From the NCBI RefSeq assembly GCF_963676935.1, contig NZ_OY781470.1:2948680-3012679 (forward strand): DNA of 64,000 nt, given 5' to 3'. How positions within the stretch are numbered: position 1 is the stretch's first letter; each line of letters starts with the position of its first letter. The position numbers and the translations under genes are program-made. Shown in pieces: positions 932 through 52,817 of this stretch. Source of the DNA: Halarcobacter sp. (GTDB taxonomy: Bacteria > Campylobacterota > Campylobacteria > Campylobacterales > Arcobacteraceae). The notes below the pieces were generated by a model. It ran no database searches, had not been told where the DNA came from, and was given only the letters and a program-made list of their open reading frames with translations.

Positions 932-1017
932 TCAAATATGAATTTTATTTCATATTAAATTCATAATCTTTTCATCAATTTCTTGTAAATTTACAAAAAT
1001 TGGATGAAAGGATTTTT

Positions 1018-2100
1018 TTGTTTATACTTGCAATTAAAGCTTTAAAAGCAAACAAATTAAAAACAATATTAATATTTATTAGTCTTATCTTTTCTATCAC
1101 ATCAATATTTTTAATTAGCTCTATCTCAAATGGAGTTATATCTATGTATTCAAATATGTTAAAAAGTGATGGAGATATTATAATAACTCAAGCAAAAATC
1201 TCTGATACCTTTTTTTCAAATGTAGATGTCAAACTATTAGAAAAAATAGATAAGTTAGAAAATGTAAAAAAAACCTCTGCAATAATTGTTGGAGCAAGCC
1301 CAGTTGAAAAGCTTCCTATTGTTGCAGTTTATGGTATGTCTGATAATAGATTTGAAAACTATAAACTTATAAAAGGCACTTACCCAAAACTAAATGAAGT
1401 ATTAGTTGGTAACTCTATTTATGAATCTTTAAAAAACAAAAACAGTATTCAAATAGCAGACAAAACTTTTAATGTTTCTGGTGTTTTTAAAAGTGATATT
1501 GGATTTGAAAATGGTGGAGTTGTTTTAAAACTTGAAGATGCAAGTAAAATTTTTAACAAAAGTGCTTCTATGTTAATGGTAAACAGTAAGATAGATTCAA
1601 ATATTGAAAATCTAGTAAAAGATATAGAAAACCTGAGTAAAGATATAGAAGTAAAATCTACTCAAAATTTTGTGGATAATTATAATCAATTTAAAATTAT
1701 CAAAACCTCATCAAACCTTATTGGTCTAATCTCTTTTTGTATGGGTCTTTTAGGGATTGTAAGTATCATGAGTATCACAATAAATCAAAGAAAAACTGAA
1801 TTTGGTATAAAAAGAGCAATTGGAATCTCAACTAAAAAAATTGTTTCACAAATAATCTTAGAAAGTTCAATTTTAGGAATACTAAGTTTTATTAGTTCTT
1901 TTTTTATCTCTTATATTGCACTAGCACTAATAAAAAACTCTTCACTTTTTCATGGATATGTAAATGGAGAAATATCTTCTACCCTTGCAATATATCTATT
2001 TATTTGTTCACTATCAATGGCTATTTTAGGTTCAATTATTCCTGCAATAAATGCTTCAAGAATTGACCCTATTATTCTTATGCAAGGGGATAAAATATGA
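1018..2100 (+). CDS. ABC transporter permease, FtsX/MacB type
   Basis: Membrane subunit of a MacB/LolCDE-like ABC system. An N-terminal membrane segment (about residues 10-35) is followed by a roughly 200-residue extracytoplasmic domain and three C-terminal membrane segments, the last ending in the PAINASRIDPI block typical of FtsX permeases. A TTG at 1000 extends the frame by six codons but has no ribosome site. The TTG at 1018 has AAAGGA five bases upstream and gives the usual FILAIKALKANK N-terminus, so I chose it. The stop overlaps the ATPase start by four bases (ATGA). The substrate is unknown; the operon context suggests assembly or export for a redox complex, which is inference. Confidence 0.85.
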   Translation: MFILAIKALKANKLKTILIFISLIFSITSIFLISSISNGVISMYSNMLKSDGDIIITQAKISDTFFSNVDVKLLEKIDKLENVKKTSAIIVGASPVEKLPIVAVYGMSDNRFENYKLIKGTYPKLNEVLVGNSIYESLKNKNSIQIADKTFNVSGVFKSDIGFENGGVVLKLEDASKIFNKSASMLMVNSKIDSNIENLVKDIENLSKDIEVKSTQNFVDNYNQFKIIKTSSNLIGLISFCMGLLGIVSIMSITINQRKTEFGIKRAIGISTKKIVSQIILESSILGILSFISSFFISYIALALIKNSSLFHGYVNGEISSTLAIYLFICSLSMAILGSIIPAINASRIDPIILMQGDKI

Positions 2101-2723
2101 TACTAAAAGCAGATAATATTTCCCATGATTATAATGGTGACAAAGCTTTAAACAAAGTCTCTCTTGAGATAAAAGAAGCCGAGTTTGTGTGCTTAATAGG
2201 TGAGAGTGGTAGTGGTAAAACAACTTTATTGTCTGTGTTATCTACCCTACTTAAACCAAAAGAGGGAACACTATTTTTTGAAGGTAGTAGTTATTCAACT
2301 ATAAAAAACATAGATGAATTTAGACAAAAAAACATAGGTTTTATTTTTCAATTTCATTATCTAATAAACTATTTAAACCTATTTGAAAATATAAAACTTG
2401 CAAACCCTAAAGCTAGTGATGATGAGATTTTAAAAATACTTTCAATCTTAAATATAAAAACATTAAAAAACAAGTTTCCAACAGAGATTTCTGGAGGACA
2501 AAGACAAAGAGCTGCAATAGCAAGAGCTTTAATAAACAATCCAAAAATACTTTTTGCTGATGAGCCAACGGGTAATTTAGATTCTAAAAATGCACAAAAA
2601 GTTTTTGAACTATTTAAAGAGTTGTCAAAAAATGGAACTACAATTATTGTTGCAACACATAACAAAGAGCTTGCTAAAACAGCAGATACAATTTACGAGG
2701 TAAAAGATGGACAAATTAGATAA
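2097..2723 (+). CDS. ABC transporter ATP-binding protein, LolD/MacB type
   Basis: ATPase partner of the preceding FtsX-type permease. At 208 residues it is a single nucleotide-binding domain with Walker A GESGSGKTT near residue 37, signature SGGQRQR, Walker B ILFADEPTGNLDS and the switch histidine in VATHN. The sequence is closest in style to the LolD/MacB/FtsE group rather than to importer ATPases. It overlaps the permease by four bases and the downstream oxidase-like gene by 17 bases, so the three are translationally coupled. No substrate-binding or membrane-fusion protein gene lies beside it. Confidence 0.9.
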   Translation: MILKADNISHDYNGDKALNKVSLEIKEAEFVCLIGESGSGKTTLLSVLSTLLKPKEGTLFFEGSSYSTIKNIDEFRQKNIGFIFQFHYLINYLNLFENIKLANPKASDDEILKILSILNIKTLKNKFPTEISGGQRQRAAIARALINNPKILFADEPTGNLDSKNAQKVFELFKELSKNGTTIIVATHNKELAKTADTIYEVKDGQIR

Positions 2724-4275
2724 CTTTAGTTTTTTTATTAATAAACATTTCAAGATTTCATTAATATTTTTATTTTTAGGGATGGTTTTTGGAATTTTCT
2801 ATTCATTAAATTTATTAGGATTTTATATTGATTCTCAAACACTAATCCCAGCAAGCATGAGATCACTACATATTAGTTTAATGCTTTATGGTTTTGTTCC
2901 ATTAATGCTTTCATATCTTCCTTTTTTATTGATAAATAAAGAGGGTGTAAAAAGTGAAGTGGGATTACAATATCTAAACCTTTATACAATATTTTGGTAT
3001 ATATTTTTAGTTTTTATGATTAGTTCAATCCTTTTTGGGAATACTAGAGGACTAGCATTTTATGACTTCCCATATGAGTTAAATTTCATACTTGCCATAT
3101 CTGGAGTTTTTTATATTATTGCCCTTATTAAATATATAAAAGCCTATGAGACCATTCCCCTATGGATAAAAGTTTGTCTAAGAATTACTATTATTGCACC
3201 TATTGCTTTACTTATATTAATGAATCCTACAATTGGACAAGTTGAAAGTACAATTTCAGGACCCCATGGAGATAACACTTTAGGTATGAGTTTAGCTTTA
3301 ATCCCTATTTATTACCTTATTATAAAACTGCTAAACAAAGGTGAATTTAAAGCTAGATGGAATGTTCTTTGGATTATTCCAACTATATTTTATGCTTTTT
3401 CTGTTTTATATAGAAGTTTTATAGGACACTTAAGTTATGAGCAAGAGTGGTTTTTCCAATGGCTAACTTTTCTTTATGTACCGATATTATATAGATGGTA
3501 TAAGGATTCAAACATAGAAAAATTTGCTAAAAAAGCACTTCTTATATCAATACTTGCTTTTCTTTTTGTAGATATTGAAGGGAATATTTTATTTATACCT
3601 GAACTTAGATGGCTTTTTCATAGAAATGATTTAATTATTGCCCATGCTCATGTAGCTATGGGAATTGGTGTATTTTTTATGGTAATTGCAATGTTTGTTA
3701 ACTATATTAAAGAACTTAAAAAAACTATTTTTTATACCCTTTATCTAATTGGATTATTAGGGATATTTACAGTTTTAAGTATCTCTGGACTTATTCAAGC
3801 AGAAATATTTCAAGCAGATATTTATAATTTATGGATAGCAAGAAGTATTTTTGGAGTTATTGCACTTATATCACTATTTAGTTTTATTACTTTTAAATTC
3901 AAATTTACTTTACTTCAAAAATATAATCTCTTAGGGGTATTAGCTGATGGAGTAGGTGGTATTTTTTTACTTTTATTAAGTAGTTTTCTATATCCACTTA
4001 TTGGTTTTAAATTTGCTGGAAGTTACGAATATATTGTATTTGCTTTTGTAAGTATTACAGGGGTAATTCATTACTTAGCTCTCACAAATAAAGTGCATGA
4101 GATCATCTTAACAAAACTTACAGTTATTACAAGAGTTTTTATAAGTTCAGTTTTTTTTGCTCTTTTTTATAACAAAACTTTAGGTGTAGAAGCTTTATTA
4201 ATATCTTTATTTGATGTTTTATTTGCTTCTACATTTTTATTTATTTTCAAAAAGGAATTATTATGCCAAAAATAG
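2707..4275 (+). CDS. Divergent haem-copper oxidase subunit I-like membrane protein (CcoN/NorB-like)
   Basis: A 522-residue protein with about 12 membrane segments. Blocks match CcoN in order: R52-S-L-H55 in helix II (low-spin haem ligand), PHGDNTLGM with H187 where CcoN has its GHN copper-ligand motif, GHLSYEQEW with H241 where CcoN has a His-His pair, then DIEGN (E291) and HRNDLIIAHAH with H305, H313 and H315 matching the CcoN helix-X haem ligands. Only one histidine is present where two copper ligands are expected, so the active site may be altered. No CcoO, CcoP or NorC gene is adjacent. The start overlaps the ATPase gene by 17 bases, with GAGG upstream. It could be a diverged nitric oxide or oxygen reductase, or a sensor. 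Homology is well supported; activity is inferred. Confidence 0.7.
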   Translation: MDKLDNFSFFINKHFKISLIFLFLGMVFGIFYSLNLLGFYIDSQTLIPASMRSLHISLMLYGFVPLMLSYLPFLLINKEGVKSEVGLQYLNLYTIFWYIFLVFMISSILFGNTRGLAFYDFPYELNFILAISGVFYIIALIKYIKAYETIPLWIKVCLRITIIAPIALLILMNPTIGQVESTISGPHGDNTLGMSLALIPIYYLIIKLLNKGEFKARWNVLWIIPTIFYAFSVLYRSFIGHLSYEQEWFFQWLTFLYVPILYRWYKDSNIEKFAKKALLISILAFLFVDIEGNILFIPELRWLFHRNDLIIAHAHVAMGIGVFFMVIAMFVNYIKELKKTIFYTLYLIGLLGIFTVLSISGLIQAEIFQADIYNLWIARSIFGVIALISLFSFITFKFKFTLLQKYNLLGVLADGVGGIFLLLLSSFLYPLIGFKFAGSYEYIVFAFVSITGVIHYLALTNKVHEIILTKLTVITRVFISSVFFALFYNKTLGVEALLISLFDVLFASTFLFIFKKELLCQK

Positions 4276-5240
4276 CACTTATATTTTTTATTGCATTTGA
4301 ATTATGTTACTACTTACTTATAGCACAAACAGGTATTGTTGAATATTTTGCCTCAAATATCTATTATATAGCTCCTCTGCCAATAGGTGGAATTATTGGT
4401 TCAATTTTGTGTTATAAAATCTCTTTATCAAATGATAAAAAAATCAAAATTTTTCTAATGATGCAATTAATATTAACTTTCTTCTATCCTAATTATTCAC
4501 CTATTACACTCTTTATTCTTGGGATAAGTGTTGGAGCATTAGCTCCTCTTTTAATTAATGAATTAAAGAAAGCTTCAACTGTAGATTTAGGATTAGCTCT
4601 TGCTATCTCTTATAGTGTAGGAACTTTACTTTTTAATTATGATCCTGCAAAAAGAGAGTTTATTGCAATTATATTTACAGTTATAGTTTTAATCTGCTCA
4701 TATTTTTTGCAAAAAATTAAAACAAATAAAGAGATTAAAAATTTTACTCCATATCCCATCTTTGTGATGGTTTTATGGATATTTTTAGATTCTGCTTTAT
4801 TTGAAACTTTATCAAGAGATTTAAGTGTATCTATCTGGAGAGATGGCTTCACTTTTGAGATTATAGTTTTTCACATAATTGGAGTTATTGCAGCACTTAA
4901 ATTAAATATTCAAAGAATGGAAAATGAGTTATTTATAATGATACTTTTTGCACTAAGTTATCTTTTTTATTTTTTACAAGAACCCCTTGCGTTATCAGTT
5001 ATATACCCTTTTGTAATCTCTTATTACAATGTAAATATTTTAAGAAGCTTAGTAAAAAAACCTCTAAAGAAAATAGCCTTATATATGGTATTTATAGGTT
5101 GGATTGCTTCAGGGATGGGATTATTTATAGCTTTAGAAAACTTAACAATTTTTGTTCCATTTATTTTTTTAATAGCATTTATAAAAATAATAAATTCACA
5201 AAAAAACCTACTTATAAAGGAGAAAAAATGTATAAATTAG
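4263..5240 (+). CDS. Polytopic membrane protein of unknown function
   Basis: I do not recognise this family with confidence. The 325 residues form about ten hydrophobic helices in pairs, with a short basic loop near the middle (KTNKEIKN), which loosely resembles a major-facilitator-like half-repeat arrangement. No haem or metal motif is visible. It overlaps the oxidase-like gene by 13 bases and the next gene by 13 bases, so it is embedded in the coupled operon and probably works with its neighbours, for example as an accessory or transporter subunit. That role is inference only. Confidence 0.6.
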   Translation: MPKIALIFFIAFELCYYLLIAQTGIVEYFASNIYYIAPLPIGGIIGSILCYKISLSNDKKIKIFLMMQLILTFFYPNYSPITLFILGISVGALAPLLINELKKASTVDLGLALAISYSVGTLLFNYDPAKREFIAIIFTVIVLICSYFLQKIKTNKEIKNFTPYPIFVMVLWIFLDSALFETLSRDLSVSIWRDGFTFEIIVFHIIGVIAALKLNIQRMENELFIMILFALSYLFYFLQEPLALSVIYPFVISYYNVNILRSLVKKPLKKIALYMVFIGWIASGMGLFIALENLTIFVPFIFLIAFIKIINSQKNLLIKEKKCIN

Positions 5241-5755
5241 TGTTTGTTTTATTATTTACTGTAGTTTTTGCAAATGCAAATAGTCTTAGTTTAGTTAAGG
5301 GGAAGATTCAAGCCCATACGGAAGTTTTTGGAGATAGTACTATTAATCCCCAAACAGAAAATATTGTTACAGAATTAGAAAAAAGTGATTCTTTAGAATC
5401 AATAAAAGGTAAGTTTGAAATAGAAGCTATCTCTTTAATTAGTGATAATAAAGATAGAGATAAACATATGTATGAGGTCTTAAATGTAGAGAACTCTCCC
5501 AAAATTGTTTTTATTTTAAACTCTATTTCAAAACAAGAAGATAGTTATCTACTTTCAGGAATATTGATTTTAAATAATATCAGTAAACCTATCACCTCTA
5601 AAGCTACAATAAAAGAAGTTGAAAAAAATATAAACCTAAATGGTGATTTTTCAATTAAGTTAACTGATTTTGGTATGGAACCTCCTACAATGTTCTTTTT
5701 AACGGTAAGAGATCAAATAGATATAAAATATGATTTTAACTTCAAGGATAACTAA
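5228..5755 (+). CDS. YceI-like secreted protein
   Basis: A 175-residue protein beginning with a clear signal peptide (MYKLVFVLLFTVVFANA). The body has the alternating beta-strand pattern and the closing F-x-I-K-L-x-DFG and IKYDF strands of YceI-type lipocalin-like domains, which bind isoprenoid or amphiphilic ligands in the periplasm. The open frame extends upstream to 5099, but only the ATG at 5228 has a ribosome site (AAAGGAG) and a signal peptide directly after it. It overlaps the upstream gene by 13 bases and shares TAATG with the next gene. YceI proteins often sit beside b-type cytochromes, and this operon ends in one. Confidence 0.7.
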   Translation: MYKLVFVLLFTVVFANANSLSLVKGKIQAHTEVFGDSTINPQTENIVTELEKSDSLESIKGKFEIEAISLISDNKDRDKHMYEVLNVENSPKIVFILNSISKQEDSYLLSGILILNNISKPITSKATIKEVEKNINLNGDFSIKLTDFGMEPPTMFFLTVRDQIDIKYDFNFKDN

Positions 5756-6210
5756 TGTTAAAAAACATACTAGTTTTAACCCTTATTTCATCAATATATC
5801 TTTTTGCTAACAGTTTTAAAGTTGGAGATGATATAGGACATTTTTCATTACCCAATCAGTTTGATGAAAAGAAAGATGTGGATTCTAAAATTCAAACTAT
5901 TATTGTCTCTTTTGAGAAAGATACGGGAAAAGATATAAATACATTTCTTGCTTCAAAAAAAGCAGATTTTTTAAATAAACACCATGCTGTTTTCATAGCC
6001 AATATTTCAGGTATGCCATCAATTATTACAAAGCTTTTTGCTATGCCAAAAATGAGAGATTATAAACACTCTATACTTTTAATCTATGATGATGCAGATG
6101 ATAGGTTTGTAAATAAAGAGGAAAAGTCAACTCTTTATAAACTTGAAAATGGTGTTATAAAATCTATTTCCTATATCACCAAAGATGACTTAGAAGAGGT
6201 TTTTAAATAA
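5755..6210 (+). CDS. Secreted thioredoxin-fold-like protein without cysteines
   Basis: A 151-residue protein with a signal peptide (about residues 1-18) and the opening FKVGDDIGHFSLPNQFD, which resembles the start of thioredoxin/peroxiredoxin domains. There is no cysteine anywhere, so it cannot act as a thiol redox enzyme. A clear paralogue lies at 27005-27439, sharing the GDD, DQF/NQF, VSF/IVF, LF-x-x-PK and YS/HS-I positions. It starts on the last base of the YceI stop codon (TAATG) and ends one base before the phosphoesterase gene. The function is unknown; a periplasmic binding or scaffold role for the operon is a guess. Confidence 0.65.
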   Translation: MLKNILVLTLISSIYLFANSFKVGDDIGHFSLPNQFDEKKDVDSKIQTIIVSFEKDTGKDINTFLASKKADFLNKHHAVFIANISGMPSIITKLFAMPKMRDYKHSILLIYDDADDRFVNKEEKSTLYKLENGVIKSISYITKDDLEEVFK

Positions 6211-6211
6211 G

Positions 6212-6919
6212 ATGAAACTACCACAAATAAATGAGGTTGTTGTTAATTCTAAAATAAAAGAGTTATCAATTCTTCATTTAAGTGATTTACATATAAATAA
6301 AAAAACCTCTACTAATAGTATAAATCAATTGGTAAAACTTTGTAATAGAAGTGAGGCTGATTTTATAGTTATTACAGGGGATATTATTGACTGCAAAGTA
6401 AAGTTTATAAAAGAGAGATTGGAATTACTAAATAAGATAGAGAAAAAGACCTATTATATAAGTGGTAATCATGATTTGTTTTATGGATTTAAAGAATTGA
6501 AAAATATTTTGACAAATTTAATCTGTTTAGACAATAACTATGAGATTTTACAGATAAAGGATAAAACTATAGCTATAGGTGGATTAAGTGATAGATTTTC
6601 AAAATTTTTTAGGGTAAAAAGAGAAGAGGATAAAATAGTGAAAATTCTAAGTAAATATGAAAACTCAATTTTTTTAGCACATCAACCAAAAGATTATATC
6701 TATGCACTCAAATCAAATAGTAAACTTTTTCTATGTGGGCATACCCATGGGGGACAAATATACCCTTTTCACTATGTAGTAAAACTTTTTCAACCCTTTC
6801 TTAATGGTCTTATTTATAAAAAAGATACTGCCATTTATGTTAGTAAGGGGATAGGAAATTGGGGAATTGATTTTAGGTTTAAAGCTAATAATGAAATTAG
6901 TTTACTAAAATTAAGGTAA
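6212..6919 (+). CDS. Calcineurin-like metallophosphoesterase
   Basis: The 235-residue protein shows every metal-binding block of the calcineurin-like phosphoesterase family: LSDLHI near residue 24, ITGDIID, SGNHD, LAHQP and CGHTHGGQ. This order and the GHTHGGQ ending fit the YkuE/YaeI branch, whose members act on lipid pyrophosphates such as UDP-diacylglucosamine or on unknown phosphoesters. It lacks the N-terminal membrane anchor seen in several relatives. It follows the thioredoxin-like gene after one base and precedes the response regulator by nine bases. Enzyme class is sure; the substrate cannot be told. Confidence 0.85.
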   Translation: MKLPQINEVVVNSKIKELSILHLSDLHINKKTSTNSINQLVKLCNRSEADFIVITGDIIDCKVKFIKERLELLNKIEKKTYYISGNHDLFYGFKELKNILTNLICLDNNYEILQIKDKTIAIGGLSDRFSKFFRVKREEDKIVKILSKYENSIFLAHQPKDYIYALKSNSKLFLCGHTHGGQIYPFHYVVKLFQPFLNGLIYKKDTAIYVSKGIGNWGIDFRFKANNEISLLKLR

Positions 6920-6928
6920 AATAATTTT

Positions 6929-7597
6929 ATGAAAATATTAATTATCGAAGATGACGAAAAAATCATAAACTTTTTAAAAAGAGGACTTGAGGAAGAATCT
7001 TATAGTGTAGATTTTTCTAAAAATGGAGAAGAAGGCTTATACCTAGCTAGTGTAAACACTTATGATTTGATACTACTTGATATTATGTTACCTTTAATTG
7101 ATGGAATAGAAGTTTGCAAAAGGCTTAGAACATCAAATATTACTACTCCAATTATCATGTTAACGGCAAAAGATAGTGTAGAAGATACCATAAAAGGTTT
7201 GGATATAGGAGCAAATGATTACCTTCCTAAACCTTTCTCTTTTTCAGAACTTCTTGCAAGAATGAGAGTTCAACTAAGATCAAATAATCAACAACAAACA
7301 AAACTCAAAATAGCTGACTTAGAACTTGATTTACTTTCAAAAACAGCAAAAAGAGCAAATAACAATATCACACTTACAGCAAAAGAGTTTGCACTTTTAG
7401 AGTATTTAATAAAAAATAAAAACAAAGTTCTTTCAGAAACAGTTTTAGGTTCAATGTTAAACAATATGGATGAGATAAATATAAGTAATGTAGTTAATGT
7501 TTATATTTACAGATTAAGGAACAAAATAGATAAACCATATGAAAAAAAGCTTATAAAAACAGTTAGAGGAATGGGGTTTAGAATAAGTGATGAATAA
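6929..7597 (+). CDS. OmpR-family response regulator
   Basis: A 222-residue two-domain regulator. The receiver domain has the acidic pair E8-D9-D10, the phosphoacceptor D51 in LLDIMLP and the conserved lysine in LPKPF. The C-terminal winged helix (about residues 125-220) ends in the typical KTVRGMGFRI. It overlaps the next gene, a histidine kinase, by eight bases, so the pair forms one two-component system. Its position between the redox genes and cytochrome b561 suggests that it controls this operon, which is inference. Confidence 0.92.
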   Translation: MKILIIEDDEKIINFLKRGLEEESYSVDFSKNGEEGLYLASVNTYDLILLDIMLPLIDGIEVCKRLRTSNITTPIIMLTAKDSVEDTIKGLDIGANDYLPKPFSFSELLARMRVQLRSNNQQQTKLKIADLELDLLSKTAKRANNNITLTAKEFALLEYLIKNKNKVLSETVLGSMLNNMDEINISNVVNVYIYRLRNKIDKPYEKKLIKTVRGMGFRISDE

Positions 7598-8951
7598 TTT
7601 AAGTATCAAAAGAAAACTGTTAATTTATAATATAATTATCCAAACATTTATATTAATAATATTAGCCTTATCAATATATAAGACCCTTCAAATTTCAACA
7701 TTGGATAAAATAGAAACCTCTTTAAAAGTTATTGTTTTAGATATTGTAGATGATTTAGTAAAACACCAAGACAATTACCTAATTGTTGATTTCAATGAAG
7801 AGAAAGAATATAAATTTAAACCACTTTATATAAGATTAATAGATAAAAATCAGAAAATATTAAAATCTACCTATTTCCCTGATGAAATTCATAAGAACTT
7901 TCGAAAACTTTCAAAAGATATTATTAATTTTAAAAAATTTGATAATTATATCCTTAGTGAAATCAAATTCTCAATGTTAAAAGATGATTATGTACTTCAA
8001 GTTGCTACTGATTATAAAATATTAAATGAAACCATGCAAAATCTTTTTTATATTTTAATATTTATTATCCCTATAATTTTAATTTTTTCCATTACAGGGG
8101 GATATTTTTTAGTTTACAAATCATTTAAACCTATTGAAGAGATTTTAAATAATCTAAAAAATATCAACTCAACAACCCTCTCAAAAAGACTTACAACTAG
8201 TCAAAAACAAGATGAGATAAATATGCTGGCAATTGAGATTAATTCCCTTTTAGAAAGGCTTGAAATCTCATTTGAAAAAATAAATCAATTTAGCTCTGAT
8301 GCATCCCATGAACTTAAAACTCCCCTTACTATTATTAGAGGGGAAATAGAGATAACACTTAGAAAAGATAGAGATTCAAGTGAATATAAAAAGAGTCTTC
8401 AAACCTGTTTAAATGAAGTGATGATTATCCAACAAACAATAGATGATTTACTATTTTTAGCAAAAAAAGAAAACACTTCAAACAATCTTGAAGATGTATA
8501 TATTGATGAGATTACATTTGAAGCAGTTAAAGAGTTAAAACCCTTTGCCAATATTAGAGCAATTGATTTAAAAACTCAGATCAATGACGTTTTTCAAGTT
8601 AAAGGTTATAGTAAGTTACTAAAAATAGCTATAAAAAATATTCTAAAAAATGCAATAACTTACAGCTACAAAGAATCCTCAGTGGAGATAAAGAACTCTA
8701 TTGAAGATGGCAACTATGTTATTACCATAAGTGATAAAGGTATAGGAATACCAAAAGATGAACAAAAAAAGATTTTTGAAAAATTTTATAGAACAGATAA
8801 AAGTAGAAATAAAGAGTCAGGTGGTACTGGTCTTGGAATGTCTATTGTGGAAAAAATCACAAAACTTCATAATGCAAAAATAGAATTATCTAGTGAAGAA
8901 AAAAAAGGAACTACTGTAAAGTTTATTTTTAAAGGAAATATAGATGAATAA
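7590..8951 (+). CDS. Sensor histidine kinase
   Basis: A 453-residue membrane kinase partner of the preceding regulator. It has an N-terminal membrane helix (about 12-30), a periplasmic sensor of about 120 residues, a second helix (152-176), a HAMP linker, the H box SSDASHELKTPLT with H240, and the ATPase N, G1 and G2 boxes (KNILKNAITYS, DKGIGIP, GGTGLGMSI). A GTG at 7587 adds one residue; the ATG at 7590 is the simpler start. The stop overlaps the b561 start by eight bases. No known ligand-binding motif is seen in the sensor region. Confidence 0.92.
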   Translation: MNNLSIKRKLLIYNIIIQTFILIILALSIYKTLQISTLDKIETSLKVIVLDIVDDLVKHQDNYLIVDFNEEKEYKFKPLYIRLIDKNQKILKSTYFPDEIHKNFRKLSKDIINFKKFDNYILSEIKFSMLKDDYVLQVATDYKILNETMQNLFYILIFIIPIILIFSITGGYFLVYKSFKPIEEILNNLKNINSTTLSKRLTTSQKQDEINMLAIEINSLLERLEISFEKINQFSSDASHELKTPLTIIRGEIEITLRKDRDSSEYKKSLQTCLNEVMIIQQTIDDLLFLAKKENTSNNLEDVYIDEITFEAVKELKPFANIRAIDLKTQINDVFQVKGYSKLLKIAIKNILKNAITYSYKESSVEIKNSIEDGNYVITISDKGIGIPKDEQKKIFEKFYRTDKSRNKESGGTGLGMSIVEKITKLHNAKIELSSEEKKGTTVKFIFKGNIDE

Positions 8952-9606
8952 AAACTATATCTGGACACTACCCACACGAGTATTTCACTCAAGTTTTGTA
9001 CTACTTATAGTTATTTGTTATTTAACAGGAGATGATGATACAATTTTAATCCATGCTATTTCAGGTTATCTTTTACTTGTTACTCTATTTTTTAGATTTG
9101 GATGGGGATTTTTTGGTCCAAAATATTCAAAGTTTAAAGATTTTGCCTTAGATACAAAAAAAGCAAAAGAGTTTGCAAAAAATATCTTTAGTCCAAAAGA
9201 GTTTTATAATGGACATAACCCTTTAGCTTCCTATGTAATGATAAGTATGTTAATAGTAGTTACTATAATAATATTTACAGGAAGTTTAACTTATGGTTCC
9301 CAAGAAGCAAAAGGTTTTTTTGGCTTCTTAGAAAAAATCAAAACCTATAAACATATCCATGAGTTTTTTGCAAATTTTCTTTACCTTCTTATTTTCTTAC
9401 ATCTTAGTGGAATTGCAATGGATAGATTACTACATAAAGAGAATCAAACTCTAAAATCTATAATAAATGGTTTTAAGTATGGCAAAGAAAAAATAGAAGT
9501 AAGATTAAATATTTTTCAAAAACTTTATGCTTTTTTATTTTTAATTATATTTTTTAGTTTTTTAATATATTTAATAGTAGATAAAACAAACCCTTTTATC
9601 TATTAA
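8944..9606 (+). CDS. Cytochrome b561-family membrane protein
   Basis: A 220-residue four-helix b-type cytochrome of the bacterial b561/hydrogenase-b group. Histidines suitable for two haems occur in TRVFHSSF (H15), LIHAISGY, NGHNPLASY and the last helices (HIHEFF, FLHLSG). It is a paralogue of the b561 domain at 13307, sharing the WTLPTRVFH start and GPKYS, GHNP-ASYVM and GYK/GFK blocks, but stops after a last helix without the diheme tail. Its start lies inside the kinase gene. It probably passes quinol electrons to a periplasmic partner; none is encoded directly beside it. Confidence 0.85.
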   Translation: MNKNYIWTLPTRVFHSSFVLLIVICYLTGDDDTILIHAISGYLLLVTLFFRFGWGFFGPKYSKFKDFALDTKKAKEFAKNIFSPKEFYNGHNPLASYVMISMLIVVTIIIFTGSLTYGSQEAKGFFGFLEKIKTYKHIHEFFANFLYLLIFLHLSGIAMDRLLHKENQTLKSIINGFKYGKEKIEVRLNIFQKLYAFLFLIIFFSFLIYLIVDKTNPFIY

Positions 9607-12370: not shown

Positions 12371-12772
12371 ATGAAAAAGATAATTATTCCTGCACTTATT
12401 GCAACTCTTTCATTTAGTAGTGTGATAGATAACTACTTAACTAATCTAAAAAATGAAGTTATAAAAGTAGAACCAAACTTTAAAGGCTTTGATCTAAAAA
12501 GAGGTGAAAAGATATTTACCTCTACACATATGGGGAAAAAAGGTAAAGAGGTTTCATGTACATCGTGTCATGGAATAGATTTAACAAAATCCCATGAAAA
12601 CTTTTTTACTGCAAAGATTATTGAACCACTATCACCAAAAATAAACCCTAAAAGACTGACTAAAGAGAAAAAAATAAGAAAATGGCTCAAAAGAAATTTT
12701 AATGATGTCTACAATAGAGAAGGCACAGCAAAAGAAAAAGGTGATGTACTTACTTACATCATGTCAAAATAA
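12371..12772 (+). CDS. SHP-like monohaem cytochrome c (DUF1924)
   Basis: A 133-residue secreted cytochrome with a signal peptide (about residues 1-17) and one haem site C63-T-S-C66-H67. The C-terminal half, with RKWLKRNFNDVYNREGTAKE and KGDVLTYI, is diagnostic of the DUF1924/SHP family first described in Rhodobacter sphaeroides, where a distal Asn is the sixth haem ligand and O2 can bind. N109 is in the right place. The two cysteines usual in this segment (RNC and REC) are here F110 and G118. A strong ribosome site (AAAAAGGAG) precedes the ATG, and a TATAAT-like box lies near 12339. It heads a cluster with DHC and b561-DHC, as in known SHP operons. Confidence 0.82.
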   Translation: MKKIIIPALIATLSFSSVIDNYLTNLKNEVIKVEPNFKGFDLKRGEKIFTSTHMGKKGKEVSCTSCHGIDLTKSHENFFTAKIIEPLSPKINPKRLTKEKKIRKWLKRNFNDVYNREGTAKEKGDVLTYIMSK

Positions 12773-12783
12773 AGGAGGATAAA

Positions 12784-13296
12784 ATGAGATTAATATTTTT
12801 ATTTACCATTTTTATATCAACTCTTTTTGCAGATTGGTATAGTTATAAAAAACCTGGAGTTGCTCCTGTTCAAAATAAACTTTATATAAATGAATGTGCA
12901 GCTTGTCACTTTGCATACCAGCCAGGACTTTTGCCAAGTAATTCTTGGAAAAAAATGATGGCTGGTTTAGATAATCACTTTGGCGTTGATGCAACACTGC
13001 TTGATGAAGATTTTAAAGTTATATCAAAATATTTAGATGATAATAGTGCCCAAAAAGCTTTAGCTTATAAAAGAAGTAAAAAAATAGCTAGAACAATGAG
13101 AAATGATGGAAGTATAATTGCCATTAGTAAAACACCCTATTTTATAAAAGAACATAGAGAGATTCCAAAAAGATTTATTAATCAAAAAAAGGTAAAAGGG
13201 CTTTTTAATTGTACAGCTTGTCATACAACTGCACAAAAAGGGATTTATTCAGAAAGGGATATTTTAATTCCAAATTATGGTAAATGGGATGATTAA
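12784..13296 (+). CDS. Diheme cytochrome c (DHC family)
   Basis: A 170-residue secreted protein with a 16-residue signal peptide ending LFA and two haem sites, CAACH near residue 38 and CTACH near 142. The LPSNSWKKMMAGLDNHFG block and the KTPYFIKEHREIPKRF block are typical of DHC proteins, the electron donors of SHP. It follows the SHP gene by 11 bases with AAAGGAGG at its start, and precedes the b561 gene by ten bases. It probably shuttles electrons between the membrane b561 and SHP, which is family knowledge applied here. Confidence 0.88.
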   Translation: MRLIFLFTIFISTLFADWYSYKKPGVAPVQNKLYINECAACHFAYQPGLLPSNSWKKMMAGLDNHFGVDATLLDEDFKVISKYLDDNSAQKALAYKRSKKIARTMRNDGSIIAISKTPYFIKEHREIPKRFINQKKVKGLFNCTACHTTAQKGIYSERDILIPNYGKWDD

Positions 13297-13306
13297 GGAG
13301 AGTTCT

Positions 13307-14074
13307 ATGAAATCTTATATTTGGACACTTCCAACAAGAGTGTTTCATTGGTTATTTGCAACATCTATTTTATTGGCTTTCTTAACTGATGATGACAATC
13401 TTTTAACCTATCATGCAATAATTGGTTATTCAATTTTTATTCTTTTAGGTTTTCGATTTTTTTGGGGAATTGCTGGACCTAAATACTCTAGATTTAGTGA
13501 TTTTCCATTAAGTATAAAAGCTTTAAAAGAATTTTTATCAAATATTTTTTCACATAAAGAGTATGCAGGACATAATCCTGCTGCTTCATATGTAATGATT
13601 GCAATGTTTGTAGTAACTGCTTTAACTATTATAAGTGGTGTTTTAACATTTGGTATTCAAGAAGGAAAAGGTTTATTATCTTTTCTAAATAATTCTTATT
13701 ATAAAGAGATGGAGATATTTGAAGAGATACATGAATTTTGTTCAACCCTTTTAATTATATTAATTGTTGCCCATATTGGAGGAGTTTTAAGCGATAGATT
13801 ACTCAAGCCTGAGACACAAACACTAAATTCAATTTTTACAGGTTATAAAACTTTAAATATAGTAAAAAATGTAAAATTAAATATTTTTCAAAAAGCCTTA
13901 GGGTTTTTATTTTTGATTATTTTTATTTTATTTTTAGTTTTTAGTTTTACAAATCAAGGGAATTTACTTCTAGTTTCAAAATATGAACCCATAAATTATG
14001 AAAAGAAAAATGAGCTTTTTGTAAGTGAGTGTGCATCGTGCCACACTCTGTATCCCTCCAAATATCTTGCCTGA
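13307..14074 (+). CDS. Cytochrome b561 with a truncated diheme cytochrome tail (frameshifted fusion)
   Basis: Residues 1 to about 215 form a b561 domain with haem histidines in TRVFHWLF, TYHAIIGY, GHNPAASY and IHEF/VAHIGG. A last membrane helix leads into a DHC-like tail that carries its first haem site, ECASCHTLYPS, and then stops at 14074. The frame is open upstream to 13277, but the ATG at 13307 has AAGGAG seven bases before it and begins at MKSYIWTLPTRVFH, like the paralogue at 8944. The rest of the diheme domain continues in the next frame from about 14058. The intact product would be about 369 residues. Confidence 0.85.
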   Translation: MKSYIWTLPTRVFHWLFATSILLAFLTDDDNLLTYHAIIGYSIFILLGFRFFWGIAGPKYSRFSDFPLSIKALKEFLSNIFSHKEYAGHNPAASYVMIAMFVVTALTIISGVLTFGIQEGKGLLSFLNNSYYKEMEIFEEIHEFCSTLLIILIVAHIGGVLSDRLLKPETQTLNSIFTGYKTLNIVKNVKLNIFQKALGFLFLIIFILFLVFSFTNQGNLLLVSKYEPINYEKKNELFVSECASCHTLYPSKYLA

Positions 14075-14417
14075 AAAATCTTGGAAAATATTAATGTCAG
14101 ATTTAAAAAATCATTTTGGAGATGATGCTTCTTTAGATGAAGAAGATACTCAAAATATACTTAACTTTTTGCTGGAAAATAGTGCTGAAAAAAGTACAAA
14201 AGAGGCAAGTGTAAAGGTTTTGAACTCTATTAAAAATAAAGATATAATAACTATAACACAAACATCTTTTTGGAAAAAAGAACATAAAAATATTCCAAAA
14301 GAGATTTTTAAAAATAGTGAAGTAAAAACTAAAGCAAACTGCAGTGCTTGTCACATGGATATAGAAAAGGGTTTAATTGAAGATGATAAAATTAAAGATA
14401 TTAACAGTTTTATGTAG
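14058..14417 (+). pseudogene. C-terminal diheme cytochrome part of the frameshifted b561-DHC fusion
   Basis: This stretch, one frame ahead of the b561 gene, reads PNILPEKSWKILMSDLKNHFGDD and on to the second haem site CSACH near 14340. It aligns block by block with the stand-alone DHC at 12784 (GLLPSNSWKKMMAGLDNHFG and the KEH-x-x-IPK-x-F block). The frame runs upstream to a GTG at 14025, but the codons before 14058 make no sense as a protein start. An extra T at 14057 in TATCCCTCCA explains the break exactly. It may be a real mutation, a sequencing error, or a +1 slip at CCC-T. Confidence 0.8.
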
Positions 14418-14793
14418 TTTATTTTTGTTTACCTCTTTATATGCTAGTAAACACAATTTTGATTTTCACGAATACAAAAAAGAGCATATTCATAAAAATC
14501 TCGATTATTTAAATCTAAATGAGAATCAGCTTGAAAAGATAAAAAAAACTCTAATCAAATATAGAAAGAAATATGCAAAATATACTAAAAAAAGAGCTTC
14601 TAAAGAGTTAAGATTAAAAGAACTTTTCAAAGCAGACAACTTTAATGAAGAAAAATATGAAGATATATTAGAAGATATATTAGAAGATGAAATAGAATTA
14701 GAAATAAAAGTATTAAAAAAAATTCATTCTATTTTAACACCTGAACAAAGGGAAAAATTTTCTTTTTATCTAAAGGAGTGGAGAGTTGAATAA
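14377..14793 (+). CDS. Spy/CpxP-like periplasmic protein
   Basis: A 138-residue secreted, highly charged helical protein: signal peptide to about residue 23, then long helices and the LTPEQREKF motif of the LTxxQ (Spy/CpxP) family, which senses or chaperones at the envelope and often modulates a two-component kinase. The TTG at 14377 has AAAAGGG five bases upstream; the ATG at 14383 is an alternative start two codons later. It begins inside the end of the broken DHC frame and overlaps the regulator gene by eight bases. A feedback role on the adjacent kinase is plausible by analogy with CpxP-CpxA. Confidence 0.75.
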   Translation: MKMIKLKILTVLCSLFLFTSLYASKHNFDFHEYKKEHIHKNLDYLNLNENQLEKIKKTLIKYRKKYAKYTKKRASKELRLKELFKADNFNEEKYEDILEDILEDEIELEIKVLKKIHSILTPEQREKFSFYLKEWRVE

Positions 14794-15454
14794 AAATGTT
14801 CTTTTAGTAGAAGATGACAAACAAATGGAGAGTTTTATATGTGAGTATTTAGAAGATTATGATTTTAACTGTACAAGTTTTCATGATCCAAAAGAAGCAT
14901 TAAAAGAGTTTGAAAAAAATTCTCTAAATTTTGATATTGTTATTTTAGATTTAATGCTTCCTAATATGGATGGGTTTGACCTTTTTAAAAAACTTAAAAA
15001 AACAAGAGATATTCCTGTAATTATATCTTCCGCAAGGGGAGATATTGGAAATAAAATCCATGGCTTTGAGTTGGGAGTTGATGATTATTTAGCCAAACCT
15101 TATGAACCCAGAGAATTAGTACTTAGAATTAACTCCATACTAAAAAAGAGCCACTCTTCCAAAATTAAAATTAATGAATTTATAATAGATAAATTAAATT
15201 ATGAAGTAAGTTTAAACAACTACCCTATAGAGTTTACAAAAATAGAATTTGATATTTTTATTTTTTTAATTGAAAACCTAAATAAAGTTTCATCAAGGGA
15301 GCAAATTCTTCATGCTACTTCTTTAGATGAAAATACAAAAAATAGAACCATTGACATGCACATCTCAAATATAAGATATAAGATAGGAGATGATCCTAAG
15401 GAATCAAAATATATCAAATCTGTTTGGGGCATTGGTTACAAATTTGTAGGATAA
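14786..15454 (+). CDS. OmpR-family response regulator
   Basis: A 222-residue regulator with receiver residues E9-D10-D11, phosphoacceptor D55 in VILDLMLP and the lysine in LAKPYEP, followed by a winged-helix DNA-binding domain ending KSVWGIGYKF. The start is TTG with AAAGGAG upstream, inside the Spy-like gene. The next gene, two bases away, encodes its kinase. It most likely controls the SHP-DHC-b561 cluster in front of it. Confidence 0.92.
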   Translation: MNKNVLLVEDDKQMESFICEYLEDYDFNCTSFHDPKEALKEFEKNSLNFDIVILDLMLPNMDGFDLFKKLKKTRDIPVIISSARGDIGNKIHGFELGVDDYLAKPYEPRELVLRINSILKKSHSSKIKINEFIIDKLNYEVSLNNYPIEFTKIEFDIFIFLIENLNKVSSREQILHATSLDENTKNRTIDMHISNIRYKIGDDPKESKYIKSVWGIGYKFVG

Positions 15455-15455
15455 A

Positions 15456-16646
15456 ATGAGTATTAGAAAAAAAATATCAATTTTATTTATAATTAGTCTT
15501 ATTTTAATGATAATAATAGGATTATGGATAGATAAAATCAATTCTCAAAGGATTGAAGATTTAGCAACTGACAAATATCTAAAAATATCAAATGAGATAT
15601 TTCTAAATATTGATGATAAAAATAAAATTGATGAGATTATAAAAAAATATGGACTTAAACAATTAGAAAAATCTGATAATACACTTAGTAGAATATATTA
15701 TAAAAAACATACCTTTGGATTTATATCTATTTCACAAATACCCTTTGAAGATGAATTTATAATTCACATAAAATATTTAGATGATGAATATATATTAAAA
15801 AGCCAAGATGAAAGAAACATAAATGAAAAACTAACTCTAAATATCTTAGTATTTTTAGATATATTTGTTCTAATAATCATATTTTTATATATACTAAAAC
15901 TTCTATCACCACTTAAAAAAATCACAAAAGAGATTGATCACTTTTCAAATGGAGATTTCTCTTGTAGAATAGATATAAATTCAAATGATGAGATTGGTAC
16001 ATTAGCTAATACTTTTAATTCAATGGCAAAAAACTTGGAAGAATTAATTAAAACAAGAGAAGACCTATTAAGAGATATAGGGCATGAACTTAGAACCCCT
16101 ATAGCAAAAGGGAAGTTTGTTATTGAGAAATTTAATCCTTCCCAAAATAAAGAGCTTTTAAAAAGAATCTTTTTAGATTTGGAAACTCTTACTAATGAAC
16201 TAATTCAATTGGAAAAATTAAACTCTTCAAATCTAAATTTCACAAAATTTAGTGCTGAAACACTAATTTTAGAAGCATTAAATAAATTGTATATAAAAGA
16301 TGAATCAAAAGTAAAATTACATATTTCTGATGATTTTAAGATTTATGCTGATTTAGAGTATTTAAGTATTGCTTTAAAAAATCTAATTGACAATGCTTTA
16401 AAATATACTACTAATTATCCAATAAAAATTGAAGCTGTTGAAAATAAAATTATCGTAAAAAATAGTGCAGATAAACTTTCAAAAGATATTGAGCATTATT
16501 TAAAACCTTTTATTCAAGAATCTTCCCAAAGAGACGGGTTTGGTCTTGGTCTAAGTATTGTTAATAAAATCCTGGTTAAACATAAATTTGAATTGGAATA
16601 TTCATATAAAAATAAAGAAAATATCTTTACTATACATATAAAATAA
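15456..16646 (+). CDS. Sensor histidine kinase, CpxA/ArsS-like
   Basis: A 396-residue kinase with membrane helices at about 7-24 and 127-147, a periplasmic sensor of about 100 residues, HAMP, H box RDIGHELRTPIAK with H210, N box KNLIDNALKYT and G2 box GFGLGLSI. The G1 box region is short and atypical (NSADKLSKDIEHYL), as in ArsS/RssA-like Campylobacterota kinases. The ATG lies two bases after the regulator stop. Together with the Spy-like protein this looks like an envelope or redox stress circuit. Confidence 0.9.
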   Translation: MSIRKKISILFIISLILMIIIGLWIDKINSQRIEDLATDKYLKISNEIFLNIDDKNKIDEIIKKYGLKQLEKSDNTLSRIYYKKHTFGFISISQIPFEDEFIIHIKYLDDEYILKSQDERNINEKLTLNILVFLDIFVLIIIFLYILKLLSPLKKITKEIDHFSNGDFSCRIDINSNDEIGTLANTFNSMAKNLEELIKTREDLLRDIGHELRTPIAKGKFVIEKFNPSQNKELLKRIFLDLETLTNELIQLEKLNSSNLNFTKFSAETLILEALNKLYIKDESKVKLHISDDFKIYADLEYLSIALKNLIDNALKYTTNYPIKIEAVENKIIVKNSADKLSKDIEHYLKPFIQESSQRDGFGLGLSIVNKILVKHKFELEYSYKNKENIFTIHIK

Positions 16647-26254: not shown

Positions 26255-26260
26255 GTGATT

Positions 26261-26965
26261 ATGGCTTGCGATACAGGTGCAAAACCAATTGAAAAAAAAG
26301 AAGAATCAAGTGAAAATCAAAATATTATAGAAAATAAAAAGGAAGAAAAAATGAGTTCAAGTTTAGTATTAAGAAAAGTACCAGAGTTTAAAATGGAAGC
26401 ATACGATGCAAAATCAGGACACTATACAGAAGTTAGTAGTGAAGATTACAAAGGTAAATGGCACGTAGTTTGTTTTTATCCAGCAGACTTTACATTTGTT
26501 TGTCCAACAGAAATTGCAGCTATGAATGCAAAATATGATGAATTCCAAGAGTTAGGTGTAGAGATTTTAGCTGTATCAACTGATACAAAATTTTCTCACA
26601 AAAGATTTGTAGAAACAGAACCTTTATTAGAAGGATTAAAACTAACTATTGGTGCTGATTCAACAGGTGCTGTAAGTCGAGCATTTGGTGTTATGATTGA
26701 AGAAGAAGGTATAGCTTTAAGAGGAAGATTTTTAATCAACCCAGAAGGAACTGTAGTAGCTCAAGAGGTTCAAGCACCAATGGTTGGAAGAAACGTAAAT
26801 GAGTTCTTAAGACAAGTAAAAGCTTGGCAACATGCAGAAAAAACTGGTGAAGTTTGTCCAGCTGGATGGGTTCCAGGTAAGAAAACACTTCCAGTTAACA
26901 CTGATGTTGAGCAAATGACAGGTAGAGTTGGTGATTATATCACTGTTGAAGAGATTATGTCATAA
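26261..26965 (+). CDS. Peroxiredoxin, AhpC-type 2-Cys
   Basis: Thiol peroxidase that reduces hydrogen peroxide and organic peroxides. The peroxidatic cysteine is in FYPADFTFVCPTE and the resolving cysteine in GEVCPAGWVPG, the typical 2-Cys AhpC/Prx1 layout. The ATG at 26261, with AAGGAG five bases upstream, gives 234 residues, including an unusual N-terminal extension of about 30 charged residues with a third cysteine (MACDTG). A second ATG at 26351 with its own AAGGAA site gives the usual family start MSSSLVLRKVPEF. Both forms may be made. It is monocistronic up to a strong terminator. Confidence 0.93.
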   Translation: MACDTGAKPIEKKEESSENQNIIENKKEEKMSSSLVLRKVPEFKMEAYDAKSGHYTEVSSEDYKGKWHVVCFYPADFTFVCPTEIAAMNAKYDEFQELGVEILAVSTDTKFSHKRFVETEPLLEGLKLTIGADSTGAVSRAFGVMIEEEGIALRGRFLINPEGTVVAQEVQAPMVGRNVNEFLRQVKAWQHAEKTGEVCPAGWVPGKKTLPVNTDVEQMTGRVGDYITVEEIMS

Positions 26966-27004: not shown

Positions 27005-27439
27005 ATGAAAATTTTAATAACACTATTTTTATTTATAAATTTGAGCTTTGCATCAAGCCTAAAAATTGGTGATGATTTGTCAAGTTTAAAGGTTGAAGAT
27101 CAATTTGATAAAATACTAGAAATAAATAAAAATATAAAAAAAATAATAATAGTTTTTTCGAAAGATAAAGGGGATGAAATAAAAAGTTTTTTAGAAACAA
27201 ATCCAAATTATTTAAAAACAAACAATGCTTTATATTTTGCAGATGTTAGCGCTGCACCAGGATTTGTTACAAATTTATTTATGGTTCCAAAATTTAAAAA
27301 ATATAATTATTCTATAGGACTAATAAGAGATGAAAAAGTAGCTGAAAGTTTTCCAAAAAAAGATGAAAATAATCTAACAATTATAGAACTAGAAGAAAAC
27401 AAAATCTCCTCTATCAAATATGAGAAAAGCCTAAAATAG
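27005..27439 (+). CDS. Secreted thioredoxin-fold-like protein without cysteines (paralogue of 5755-6210)
   Basis: A 144-residue protein with a signal peptide ending about residue 17 (LSFAS), followed by LKIGDDLSSLKVEDQFD, the same opening as the protein at 5755. Later matches include IIIVFSKDKG, FADVSAAPGFVTNLFMVPK and YNYSIGLI. It has no cysteine, so thiol chemistry is excluded. It follows the peroxiredoxin terminator, which suggests a separate or read-through transcript. The function is unknown; its place beside a peroxidase and its paralogue's place beside redox proteins hint at an oxidative-stress role. Confidence 0.65.
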   Translation: MKILITLFLFINLSFASSLKIGDDLSSLKVEDQFDKILEINKNIKKIIIVFSKDKGDEIKSFLETNPNYLKTNNALYFADVSAAPGFVTNLFMVPKFKKYNYSIGLIRDEKVAESFPKKDENNLTIIELEENKISSIKYEKSLK

Positions 27440-50683: not shown

Positions 50684-51094
50684 ATGGTCTATATGACTCT
50701 GTTTTTCTCTGCTTTTTTATCTGCTACATTTTTTCCTTTTGGAAGTGAGGCAGTACTAATTTATGATATTTTACAAGGCTACAATATCTATTATCTTCTT
50801 TTCTTTGCAACCTTAGGAAACACCTTAGGTTCAGTAGTAAACTACTTCTTAGGCTTAAAAGGGGAAGAGTTTTTAGAAAGAAAGAACTTACTTAAAAGGG
50901 AAAAAATTGATAAATATATAAAGTTTTTTTCAAAATATGGTGGGGTAACACTTCTTTTAGCTTGGGCTCCAATTATTGGAGACCCTATTACTTTTATAGC
51001 TGGGATTTTAAAGTATGATTTTAAAAAATTTTTACTTTTAGTTGCCATTTCAAAGTTTTCAAGATATCTATTTTTGACTCTTGTTACTTTATAA
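50684..51094 (+). CDS. YqaA/DedA-like small membrane protein
   Basis: A 136-residue protein with four hydrophobic segments and the VTT/DedA-type blocks FPFGSEAVL, ATLGNTLGSVVNYFLG and APIIGDPITFIAG, which identify the YqaA branch. DedA relatives flip lipids or act in membrane homeostasis; for YqaA the role is unclear. It converges with ureG, overlapping by six bases. An AAAAAAGG site precedes the ATG. Confidence 0.85.
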   Translation: MVYMTLFFSAFLSATFFPFGSEAVLIYDILQGYNIYYLLFFATLGNTLGSVVNYFLGLKGEEFLERKNLLKREKIDKYIKFFSKYGGVTLLLAWAPIIGDPITFIAGILKYDFKKFLLLVAISKFSRYLFLTLVTL

Positions 51095-51676
51095 TAAAGC
51101 CTCTATCCACTCTTTTAGTCTATTGAAGCTTTCTTCATCTTTGTTTGTTAGAAAAAGGCTTGGTTTATTTTTTCTATTGTTCTTAACATCCTCTTTCATT
51201 TGCTCTAAATCAACATTTACATAAGGGCAAAGATCTGTTTTATTTATAACTAAAAGATCTGAGAAAAGAAGTCCTGCCCCTTTTTTTCTAGGGATATCTC
51301 CACCTTGAGCCACATCTATAACATAAAGGTAATAATCGATTAATTCATATGAGAAGGTTGCACTTAAATTATCTCCACCACTCTCTACAAATATAATATC
51401 AGGGTTGAACTTCTCTTCTAACTCTTCAACTGCTTTTTGATTCATGGAAATATCATCTCTAATTGCTGTGTGTGGACAACCACCAGTTTCTACACCTATG
51501 ATTTGCTCATTATTTATATCAAGTTTCTCTTTTAAGTAGTTTGCATCTTCTGTTGTGTATATATCGTTTGTAACAATTCCTAAAGTGTATTTATTTTTTA
51601 GAATATTTGTTAATTTTTCTATAATAGATGTTTTCCCACTTCCAACTGGTCCTGCTATTCCTATTTTTATCGACAT
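51089..51676 (-). CDS. ureG: Urease accessory GTPase UreG
   Basis: A 195-residue SIMIBI GTPase that powers nickel delivery to urease. It has the P-loop IAGPVGSGKTSIIE, the metal-binding CPH in ETGGCPHTAIRDD, FVESGGDNL and the guanine motif VINKTDL. It is the last gene of the ureAB-C-E-F-G run and is separated from ureF by 13 bases. Confidence 0.96.
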   Translation of the reverse strand: MSIKIGIAGPVGSGKTSIIEKLTNILKNKYTLGIVTNDIYTTEDANYLKEKLDINNEQIIGVETGGCPHTAIRDDISMNQKAVEELEEKFNPDIIFVESGGDNLSATFSYELIDYYLYVIDVAQGGDIPRKKGAGLLFSDLLVINKTDLCPYVNVDLEQMKEDVKNNRKNKPSLFLTNKDEESFNRLKEWIEALL

Positions 51677-51689
51677 TAAATTATTCCTT

Positions 51690-52364: not shown

Positions 52365-52365
52365 C

Positions 52366-52800
52366 TTAGTGACTGTGGTGTGCATTTCCATTTGGTTTGA
52401 AAATAGCTTTTGTTTTTTTAATCTCTACCTTATCAATAGACTCACAAGCTTTTATAATATCAGCTGTAGAGATATCTTCTAAAATAGTGATTTTGTAATC
52501 CTCTATACAAATAGGTTGGTGTCTATTTCCTATCTCATAAGCAATTCTTGCAAATGTAATATGGTCACTAAAGGTAAGAATATAAATATTATCTTCAGAT
52601 TTAGAAACTTTTATTTTATATCCATCTTCACAAACTAAAATGTCATTTTCATGAAGGTGCGTGTATTTAGCTTTTACTATAAACTCAACACCCTCTTTTG
52701 TAACTGCACATAGGTTTGGTTTTTGCATATCAAACCAGTCTAAAAGTACACTATCTTGTACTTCAATATCTCTTTTAATCTCTATTACTTTTTTTATCAT
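52366..52800 (-). CDS. ureE: Urease accessory nickel chaperone UreE
   Basis: A 144-residue nickel carrier with the N-terminal peptide-binding domain and C-terminal metal domain, where YEIGNRHQPICIED carries the conserved interface histidine. The tail ends NAHHSH, a short histidine-rich metal-binding end. It is separated from ureC by a 105-base gap with two hairpins, so its expression may be set apart from the structural genes. Confidence 0.94.
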   Translation of the reverse strand: MIKKVIEIKRDIEVQDSVLLDWFDMQKPNLCAVTKEGVEFIVKAKYTHLHENDILVCEDGYKIKVSKSEDNIYILTFSDHITFARIAYEIGNRHQPICIEDYKITILEDISTADIIKACESIDKVEIKKTKAIFKPNGNAHHSH

Positions 52801-52817
52801 TCATCTATCCTTAAAAA

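Follow-up and report, generated by a model that had tools for sequence, protein, structure and literature searches.

Ten genes at positions 1018–9606 of the window, the whole 64,000-nucleotide stretch of DNA analysed here from the 3.1-Mb single-contig genome of an Arcobacteraceae member (Halarcobacter sp.), include a core of six that encode an FtsX-type ATP-binding cassette (ABC) permease, an ABC ATPase, a protein resembling the oxidase subunit CcoN, a protein with the MFS transporter fold, a YceI-family lipocalin, and a small, probably secreted protein. We call the ten open reading frames (ORFs) g1–g10 and designate loci and genomes in the comparison by L and G numbers. Based on its recurrence, the core (g1–g6) is almost certainly a conserved module of Campylobacterota, and in Arcobacteraceae it very probably shares a regulon with phosphoethanolamine transferases; the gene set is real, conserved, and apparently undescribed. 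We propose, with a probability of about 0.4, that it is a stress-induced envelope lipid/quinone-protection module, analogous to the BcnA-LcoA system of Burkholderia, in which a copper-less relative of the oxidases would serve as the membrane cytochrome.

Among 104 Arcobacteraceae genomes surveyed, 49 genomes, representing 10 genera, contain g3, and the same 49 contain g4, side by side with it; one more genome, a fragmentary one, retains just a broken g4. A sequence-only reading of this stretch had pointed to a joint neighbourhood search for these two genes, at 2707 and 4263, and had taken all ten for one coordinated system, a candidate for an undescribed one, perhaps a terminal reductase or an envelope redox sensor with its own assembly or export machinery. 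The neighbours are indeed conserved, and the unit is a regulated envelope unit with an export-type ABC pair, of which nine genes are kept together across Arcobacteraceae; the cytochrome b561 gene (g10) lies outside the conserved set. Nearly all 49 genomes share the nine-gene order FtsX-ATPase-g3-g4-YceI-(g6)-phosphoesterase-regulator-kinase. The few exceptions include genomes in which g6 is absent or relocated, four loci in which the regulator pair has shifted by some 1–3 kb (L085, L087, L088, and L090), and L104, with no orthologous regulator/kinase pair adjacent to the module. Only in the window and in three neighbouring genomes (L061, its near-twin, and the close relatives L062 and L064) does b561 come after the kinase; in three more genomes b561 shares the operator described below, and it is absent from most loci.

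Outside the family, g1–g6 recur in relatives of Sulfurimonas/Sulfuricurvum and Sulfurovum, while Sulfurospirillum has g1–g5 without g6; the phosphoesterase g7 is distributed among Arcobacteraceae, Sulfurospirillum, and a few others. The core occurs in at least four orders (g1-g2-g3-g4-g5-g6; g4-g5-g1-g2-g3-g6; g1-g2-g3-g6-g4-g5; and g6-g1-g2-g3-g4-g5), and a linkage that outlasts such reshuffling speaks strongly for genes that work together. The separability of g7, g8-g9, and g10, each absent or moved in other genomes, would be expected if unrelated genes shared only a promoter, but for the core, kept together through four orders in several families, this explanation is contradicted, and we consider it extremely improbable. 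A scan with two exact peptide patterns, reaching only fairly close relatives, recognised no match outside Campylobacterota, and no g3 relative was found on plasmids. In the open-licence literature, we found no paper that connects Arcobacter to a response regulator for phosphoethanolamine/lipid A and none that connects YceI to Sulfurospirillum, and a match for Arcobacter, YceI, and cytochrome was unrelated to the module; an earlier description elsewhere is possible.

The operon is preceded by a predicted operator comprising four half-sites in 11-bp (base-pair) phase, the first of which is inverted (Table 1). Allowing up to 3 mismatches, chance would still place only 0.06 such sites in the window, and a 5-Mb order-1 Markov control contained 0 sites per Mb at ≤1 mismatch. 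The operator is shared by g1 upstream regions that are otherwise little alike, and almost all loci that have an orthologous regulator, including one in Sulfurospirillum arcachonense, carry it 5′ of g1 with ≤1 mismatch. It was not found where the g8 ortholog is absent or distant, namely in L104/L125 (whose regulator is only a 58% relative of g8), L142, other Sulfurospirillum, Sulfurovum, and other families. We infer that the response regulator g8 binds this operator, at 938–975.

The operator was searched for in all 104 genomes and the genes downstream of each copy were read. It precedes an LTA-synthase-like gene followed by EptA, PAP2, and DgkA in the window's own genome (G000:C1:1173445-1173482) and in G068, as well as in G054, as far as that order was read; EptA-PAP2-DgkA in G010 and G011; an LTA-synthase-like gene in G033; CptA-type transferases in G054, G056, and G064; a stand-alone b561 gene in G060, G065, and G066 (L069, L070, and L239 being among the b561 loci with their own operator copy); and an HD-domain protein in G061. 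Both transferase assignments exceed their NCBIfam cut-offs (EptA, 658 bits against 500; CptA, 678 against 404). Most other full copies lie 5′ of phosphoethanolamine-transferase operons or b561, which points to PmrAB-like control of envelope modification and argues against the envelope redox sensor suggested from the sequence alone. EptA is also a direct neighbour of the module in roughly a dozen loci, in most of them together with DgkA, and it lies inside the module between g7 and g8 in L085, L087, and L090; in all, more than ten genomes have EptA-DgkA next to or within the operon. EptA is present in 40 of the 49 module-bearing genomes as against 19 of the other 55 (Fisher 1.4e-6, uncorrected for relatedness).

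Both EptA and CptA belong to the classical targets of PmrA. The shared operator thus assigns the operon to a response that defends the envelope. The operon is probably induced together with genes that shield the outer membrane from antimicrobial peptides, and envelope charge or damage is the more likely signal sensed. As in the PmrAB systems of Salmonella and Acinetobacter, an OmpR-family regulator and kinase are combined with a repeat operator and with EptA and CptA 3′ of it. However, Salmonella PmrA binds the direct repeat YTTAAK (PMC10927774), whereas the half-site here is TTCAT, and the regulon here adds the CcoN-like module. The regulator also misses the PmrA equivalog score (177 bits; cut-off, 330), its best match being of the CopR/SilR type (254 versus 279). 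Given this score and the different half-site, g8-g9 is best described as working like PmrAB and is not classed as PmrAB. The eptA gene of A. butzleri was encountered in the literature only as an annotation (PMC6477937).

A paralogous two-component pair, with a regulator approximately 52% identical, occurs at L237 (G036), L240 (G091), and L246 (G035); its similar operator has a TTCAC variant half-site and lies 5′ of a small secreted protein.

The same regulon, together with an FtsX/MacB_PCD permease and ATPase close to a two-component system, could also suggest that the operon detoxifies antimicrobial peptides, with the ABC pair as a MacB- or BceAB-like peptide pump and the remaining genes supporting it. 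We think this improbable: the ten genes include no MacA or TolC partner, and the ABC pair travels with g3–g5 even where there is no regulator. The pair resembles LolCDE and MacB in having an FtsX-type permease with a MacB periplasmic domain (g1) and a LolD-like ATPase (g2); unlike in those systems, it is linked to g3–g5 and not to LolE, MacA, or TolC, and both proteins score below the LolD/LolCE/MacB equivalog cut-offs.

The protein g3 is a member of the haem-copper oxidase/nitric oxide (NO) reductase superfamily by fold and haem ligands, with predicted haem binding. Its match to Pfam COX1 (E 6e-7; 29 bits) is under the gathering score of 34.8, but residues 1–397 form a 12-transmembrane-helix (TM) COX1-type fold with a VIA Z of 23–25 to cNOR and cbb3 CcoN, and CcoN/cNOR are also the best Foldseek matches (E 2.5e-4). 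A PDB sequence search with the single protein returned nothing, and a profile search found CcoN only, weakly. The C-terminal four-helix part (residues ~402–514; 16 TM in all) matches no family. Comparison of g3 with CcoN, cNOR, and qNOR by hhalign gave low probabilities because the alignments are shallow, and ligands were instead read from a MAFFT joint alignment of g3 members, CcoN, cNOR, and a further NOR-like set from the same bacterial family. The low-spin haem ligands H55 and H315 and the high-spin ligand H313 are kept in 20 of the 20 g3 members compared, and the conserved H305 is also kept. In the same 20, the CuB/FeB ligands are lost: Asp189 replaces the TM6 His, and the TM7 His-His is gone. 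Their place is taken by a nearly invariant loop (N173-P-x-x-G-Q-V-E...G-P-H-G-D-N-T, the latter motif from G185), in which His187 sits two residues before Asp189 and of which the AF2 model is unsure (pLDDT <50 for residues 179–184 and 186–189).

Without CuB/FeB ligands, g3 is classed neither with the oxidases nor with the NO reductases, and it is probably not a terminal reductase. The alternative terminal reductase of the sequence-only reading, in which g3 would reduce O2, NO, or another acceptor and the remaining genes would provide assembly and sensing, could draw on the oxidase/NO-reductase fold, the conserved haem ligands, and a strictly conserved loop near the site (G185-P-H-G-D-N-T) that might hold another metal. 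It is nevertheless a distinctly improbable one, as both sets of TM6 and TM7 ligands are missing, the operon encodes no cytochrome c subunit of the CcoO, CcoP, or NorC type and no CXXCH motif in any of the ten proteins, and the operator is common to phosphoethanolamine-transferase genes. Compared with CcoN and NorB, g3 also has the extra 4-TM part as well as ABC and YceI neighbours. The total number of oxidases per genome (PF00115) was considered as an explanation for the presence of g3 and rejected; the window's genome has only one matching oxidase besides g3.

The presence of a YceI gene suggests biochemistry like that of BcnA-LcoA. Under polymyxin stress, lipid peroxidation in Burkholderia is limited by BcnA, a YceI lipocalin, and LcoA, a b561 protein. 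Bactericidal antibiotics induce this system, and ubiquinone-8 or another isoprenoid has been seen inside the barrel of YceI proteins (PMC9113575). As in that system (of the E. coli yceI-yceJ type), a secreted YceI lipocalin, g5, related to the solved structures 1y0g, 7bwl, 5w2x, and 1wub, is encoded with a predicted membrane b-type cytochrome, and the antibiotic induction there has a counterpart here in an operator common with polymyxin-type defence genes. The main putative cytochrome here, however, is the CcoN-like 16-TM protein, with b561 as an accessory, and an ABC pair, an MFS-fold protein, and a small periplasmic protein are added. The fold of g4 is drawn from an AF2 model of 12 helices, for which the top Foldseek matches are mostly MFS transporters (best E 1.6e-4; TM score 0.5–0.6); no Pfam MFS match was obtained among 42 members. 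g6 belongs to no Pfam family and has no PDB relative by sequence, and these searches gave no confirmation of the thioredoxin-like fold that the sequence-only reading had suggested for it.

In the mechanism we propose, the kinase g9 would, like PmrB, sense cationic compounds or damage to the envelope, and g8, bound at 938–975, would activate the lipid A/core phosphoethanolamine genes together with this operon. In the periplasm, the lipocalin g5 would hold a polyisoprenoid lipid, perhaps a quinone, and g3, as a two-haem b cytochrome without CuB, may keep this lipid reduced with electrons from membrane quinol, a role to which b561 could add. The FtsX/LolD-like ABC pair and g4 may shuttle this ligand from the membrane to the lipocalin or back. 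Overall, the module would quench lipid damage during the re-armouring of the outer membrane, comparable to what is proposed for BcnA-LcoA in Burkholderia. Taken separately, the redox function of lipocalin and cytochrome is a tentative part of this scheme, suggested by analogy. More doubtful still is its furthest extension, in which g3 would represent a new haem-copper branch lacking the copper/iron site, dedicated to membrane-lipid chemistry and not respiration and passing electrons to lipocalin-bound lipid, at the centre of a new six-protein envelope machine of Campylobacterota that Arcobacteraceae have placed under a lipid A modification switch.

The main rival is lipid trafficking, in which the FtsX/LolD-type ABC pair, the MFS-fold protein, and YceI would extract or flip a lipid for or from phosphoethanolamine transfer (undecaprenyl phosphate, the phosphatidylethanolamine donor, or diacylglycerol for recycling) and g3 would have a structural or other non-redox role. 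Co-regulation and adjacency with EptA, DgkA, and PAP2 are consistent with this, as are the weak LpxG/YaeI likeness of g7 and the polyisoprenoids held by YceI relatives (PMC9113575). We nonetheless judge it unlikely, as the core is present in loci without nearby EptA and none of the g3 members compared has lost any of the three haem ligands, which makes a purely structural role improbable.

Several observations weigh against lipid/quinone protection as we propose it. In relatives of Sulfurimonas and Sulfurovum and in most of those of Sulfurospirillum, the six core genes have neither regulator nor operator, nor an EptA close by, indicating that core function is independent of the regulon; the regulon thus explains the timing of the module's use in Arcobacteraceae and not its function. 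Nor is the presence of a box sufficient proof that g8 is in control: the boxes in G036 and G091 belong to the paralogous two-component pair, and the one in G022 lies before unrelated genes. The link to BcnA-LcoA consists of one shared family, YceI, and an accessory b561; g3 is not itself a b561, and the BcnA data come from another phylum. Haem binding by g3, quinone binding by g5, and the cargo of g1, g2, and g4 enter the scheme as guesses.

The arrangement of the ten ORFs is given in Table 1. From g1 to g10 the junctions measure -4, -17, -13, -13, -1, +1, +9, -11, and -8 bases, exactly as claimed in the earlier reading (overlaps or gaps of at most nine bases throughout), and its domain calls (FtsX/MacB_PCD, ABC_tran, weak COX1, YceI, Metallophos, OmpR-type regulator, HisKA kinase, and b561) were likewise right, as was its description of g6 as cysteine-less, the translation containing zero cysteines. 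Translation starts at TTG in g1, GTG in g9, and ATG in the other eight; the g1 TTG at 1018 is preceded by GAAAGGA (the longest ORF begins at 1000), and g5 starts at the ATG at 5228. Terminator-like sites within the operon are at chance level (3 found versus 2.5 expected).

Table 1. Predicted operator and genes of the operon in the window.
Feature	Position	Strand	Details
Operator, four half-sites	938..975	+	ATGAA-N6-TTCAT-N6-TTCAT-N6-TTCAT, 0 mismatches
g1, FtsX/MacB-type ABC permease, 360 aa	1018..2100	+	PF02687 6e-15, PF12704 (MacB_PCD) 5e-12; core gene
g2, LolD/FtsE-like ABC ATPase (ABC_tran)	2097..2723	+	LolD 199 bits < cut-off 308; core gene
g3, CcoN/NorB-like membrane protein	2707..4275	+	12-TM oxidase core (1-397) and 4-TM C-terminal part; core gene
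g4, compact 12-TM MFS-fold protein	4263..5240	+	AF2 pLDDT 93.5, Foldseek; no Pfam match; core gene
g5, YceI-family periplasmic lipocalin	5228..5755	+	PF04264 5e-18, N-terminal signal-like segment; core gene
g6, probably secreted cysteine-less protein	5755..6210	+	Recurs with core, absent in some genomes
g7, metallophosphoesterase, YaeI-like	6212..6919	+	PF00149 3e-15; YaeI 82 bits < cut-off 188
g8, OmpR-family response regulator	6929..7597	+	PF00072, PF00486; presence tracks operator
g9, sensor histidine kinase	7587..8951	+	PF00512 (HisKA), PF02518
g10, cytochrome b561, accessory, not core	8944..9606	+	PF01292 1e-22

Some copies of the module are damaged. In an Aliarcobacter metagenome-assembled genome (L093/L117; G024), g4 is split across two frames, either by an assembly error or by a real break; in a Sulfurospirillum locus (L135, 13861-14547), the kinase beside the module is truncated and no regulator was found nearby; and in G444 (L253), g3 is interrupted by several stops, which marks the module as decaying in that genome. 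An in-frame TGA in several Sulfurimonas-type g3 genes was considered as a lead to recoding and rejected, as the region aligned by tblastn is stop-free and the TGA is most likely an ordinary stop codon.

Elsewhere in the window, a secreted cysteine-less protein resembling g6 (27005–27439) is encoded just 3′ of a peroxiredoxin-like gene (26255–26965), which hints at a peroxide-related role for g6-type proteins. A cluster at 12371–16646 encodes an SHP/DUF1924 cytochrome, the dihaem cytochrome DHC, b561, a second DHC, a Spy/LTXXQ protein, a response regulator, and a kinase; it adjoins EptA in L065, L066, L077, and L089 and thus may be another envelope-stress redox cluster. From the ORFs, positions 51089–63999 contain urease genes (~51089–55289) beside allantoin/purine-degradation-like genes and a transporter, possibly a nitrogen-scavenging region.

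The operator and the gene linkage make the module directly testable by deletion and transcript analysis. If our proposal is correct, the oxidase fold would have been re-used outside respiration, YceI lipocalins, whose role is still debated, would gain a concrete set of partners, and Arcobacteraceae, a family that includes the food-borne A. butzleri, would have a candidate PmrAB-like regulon.

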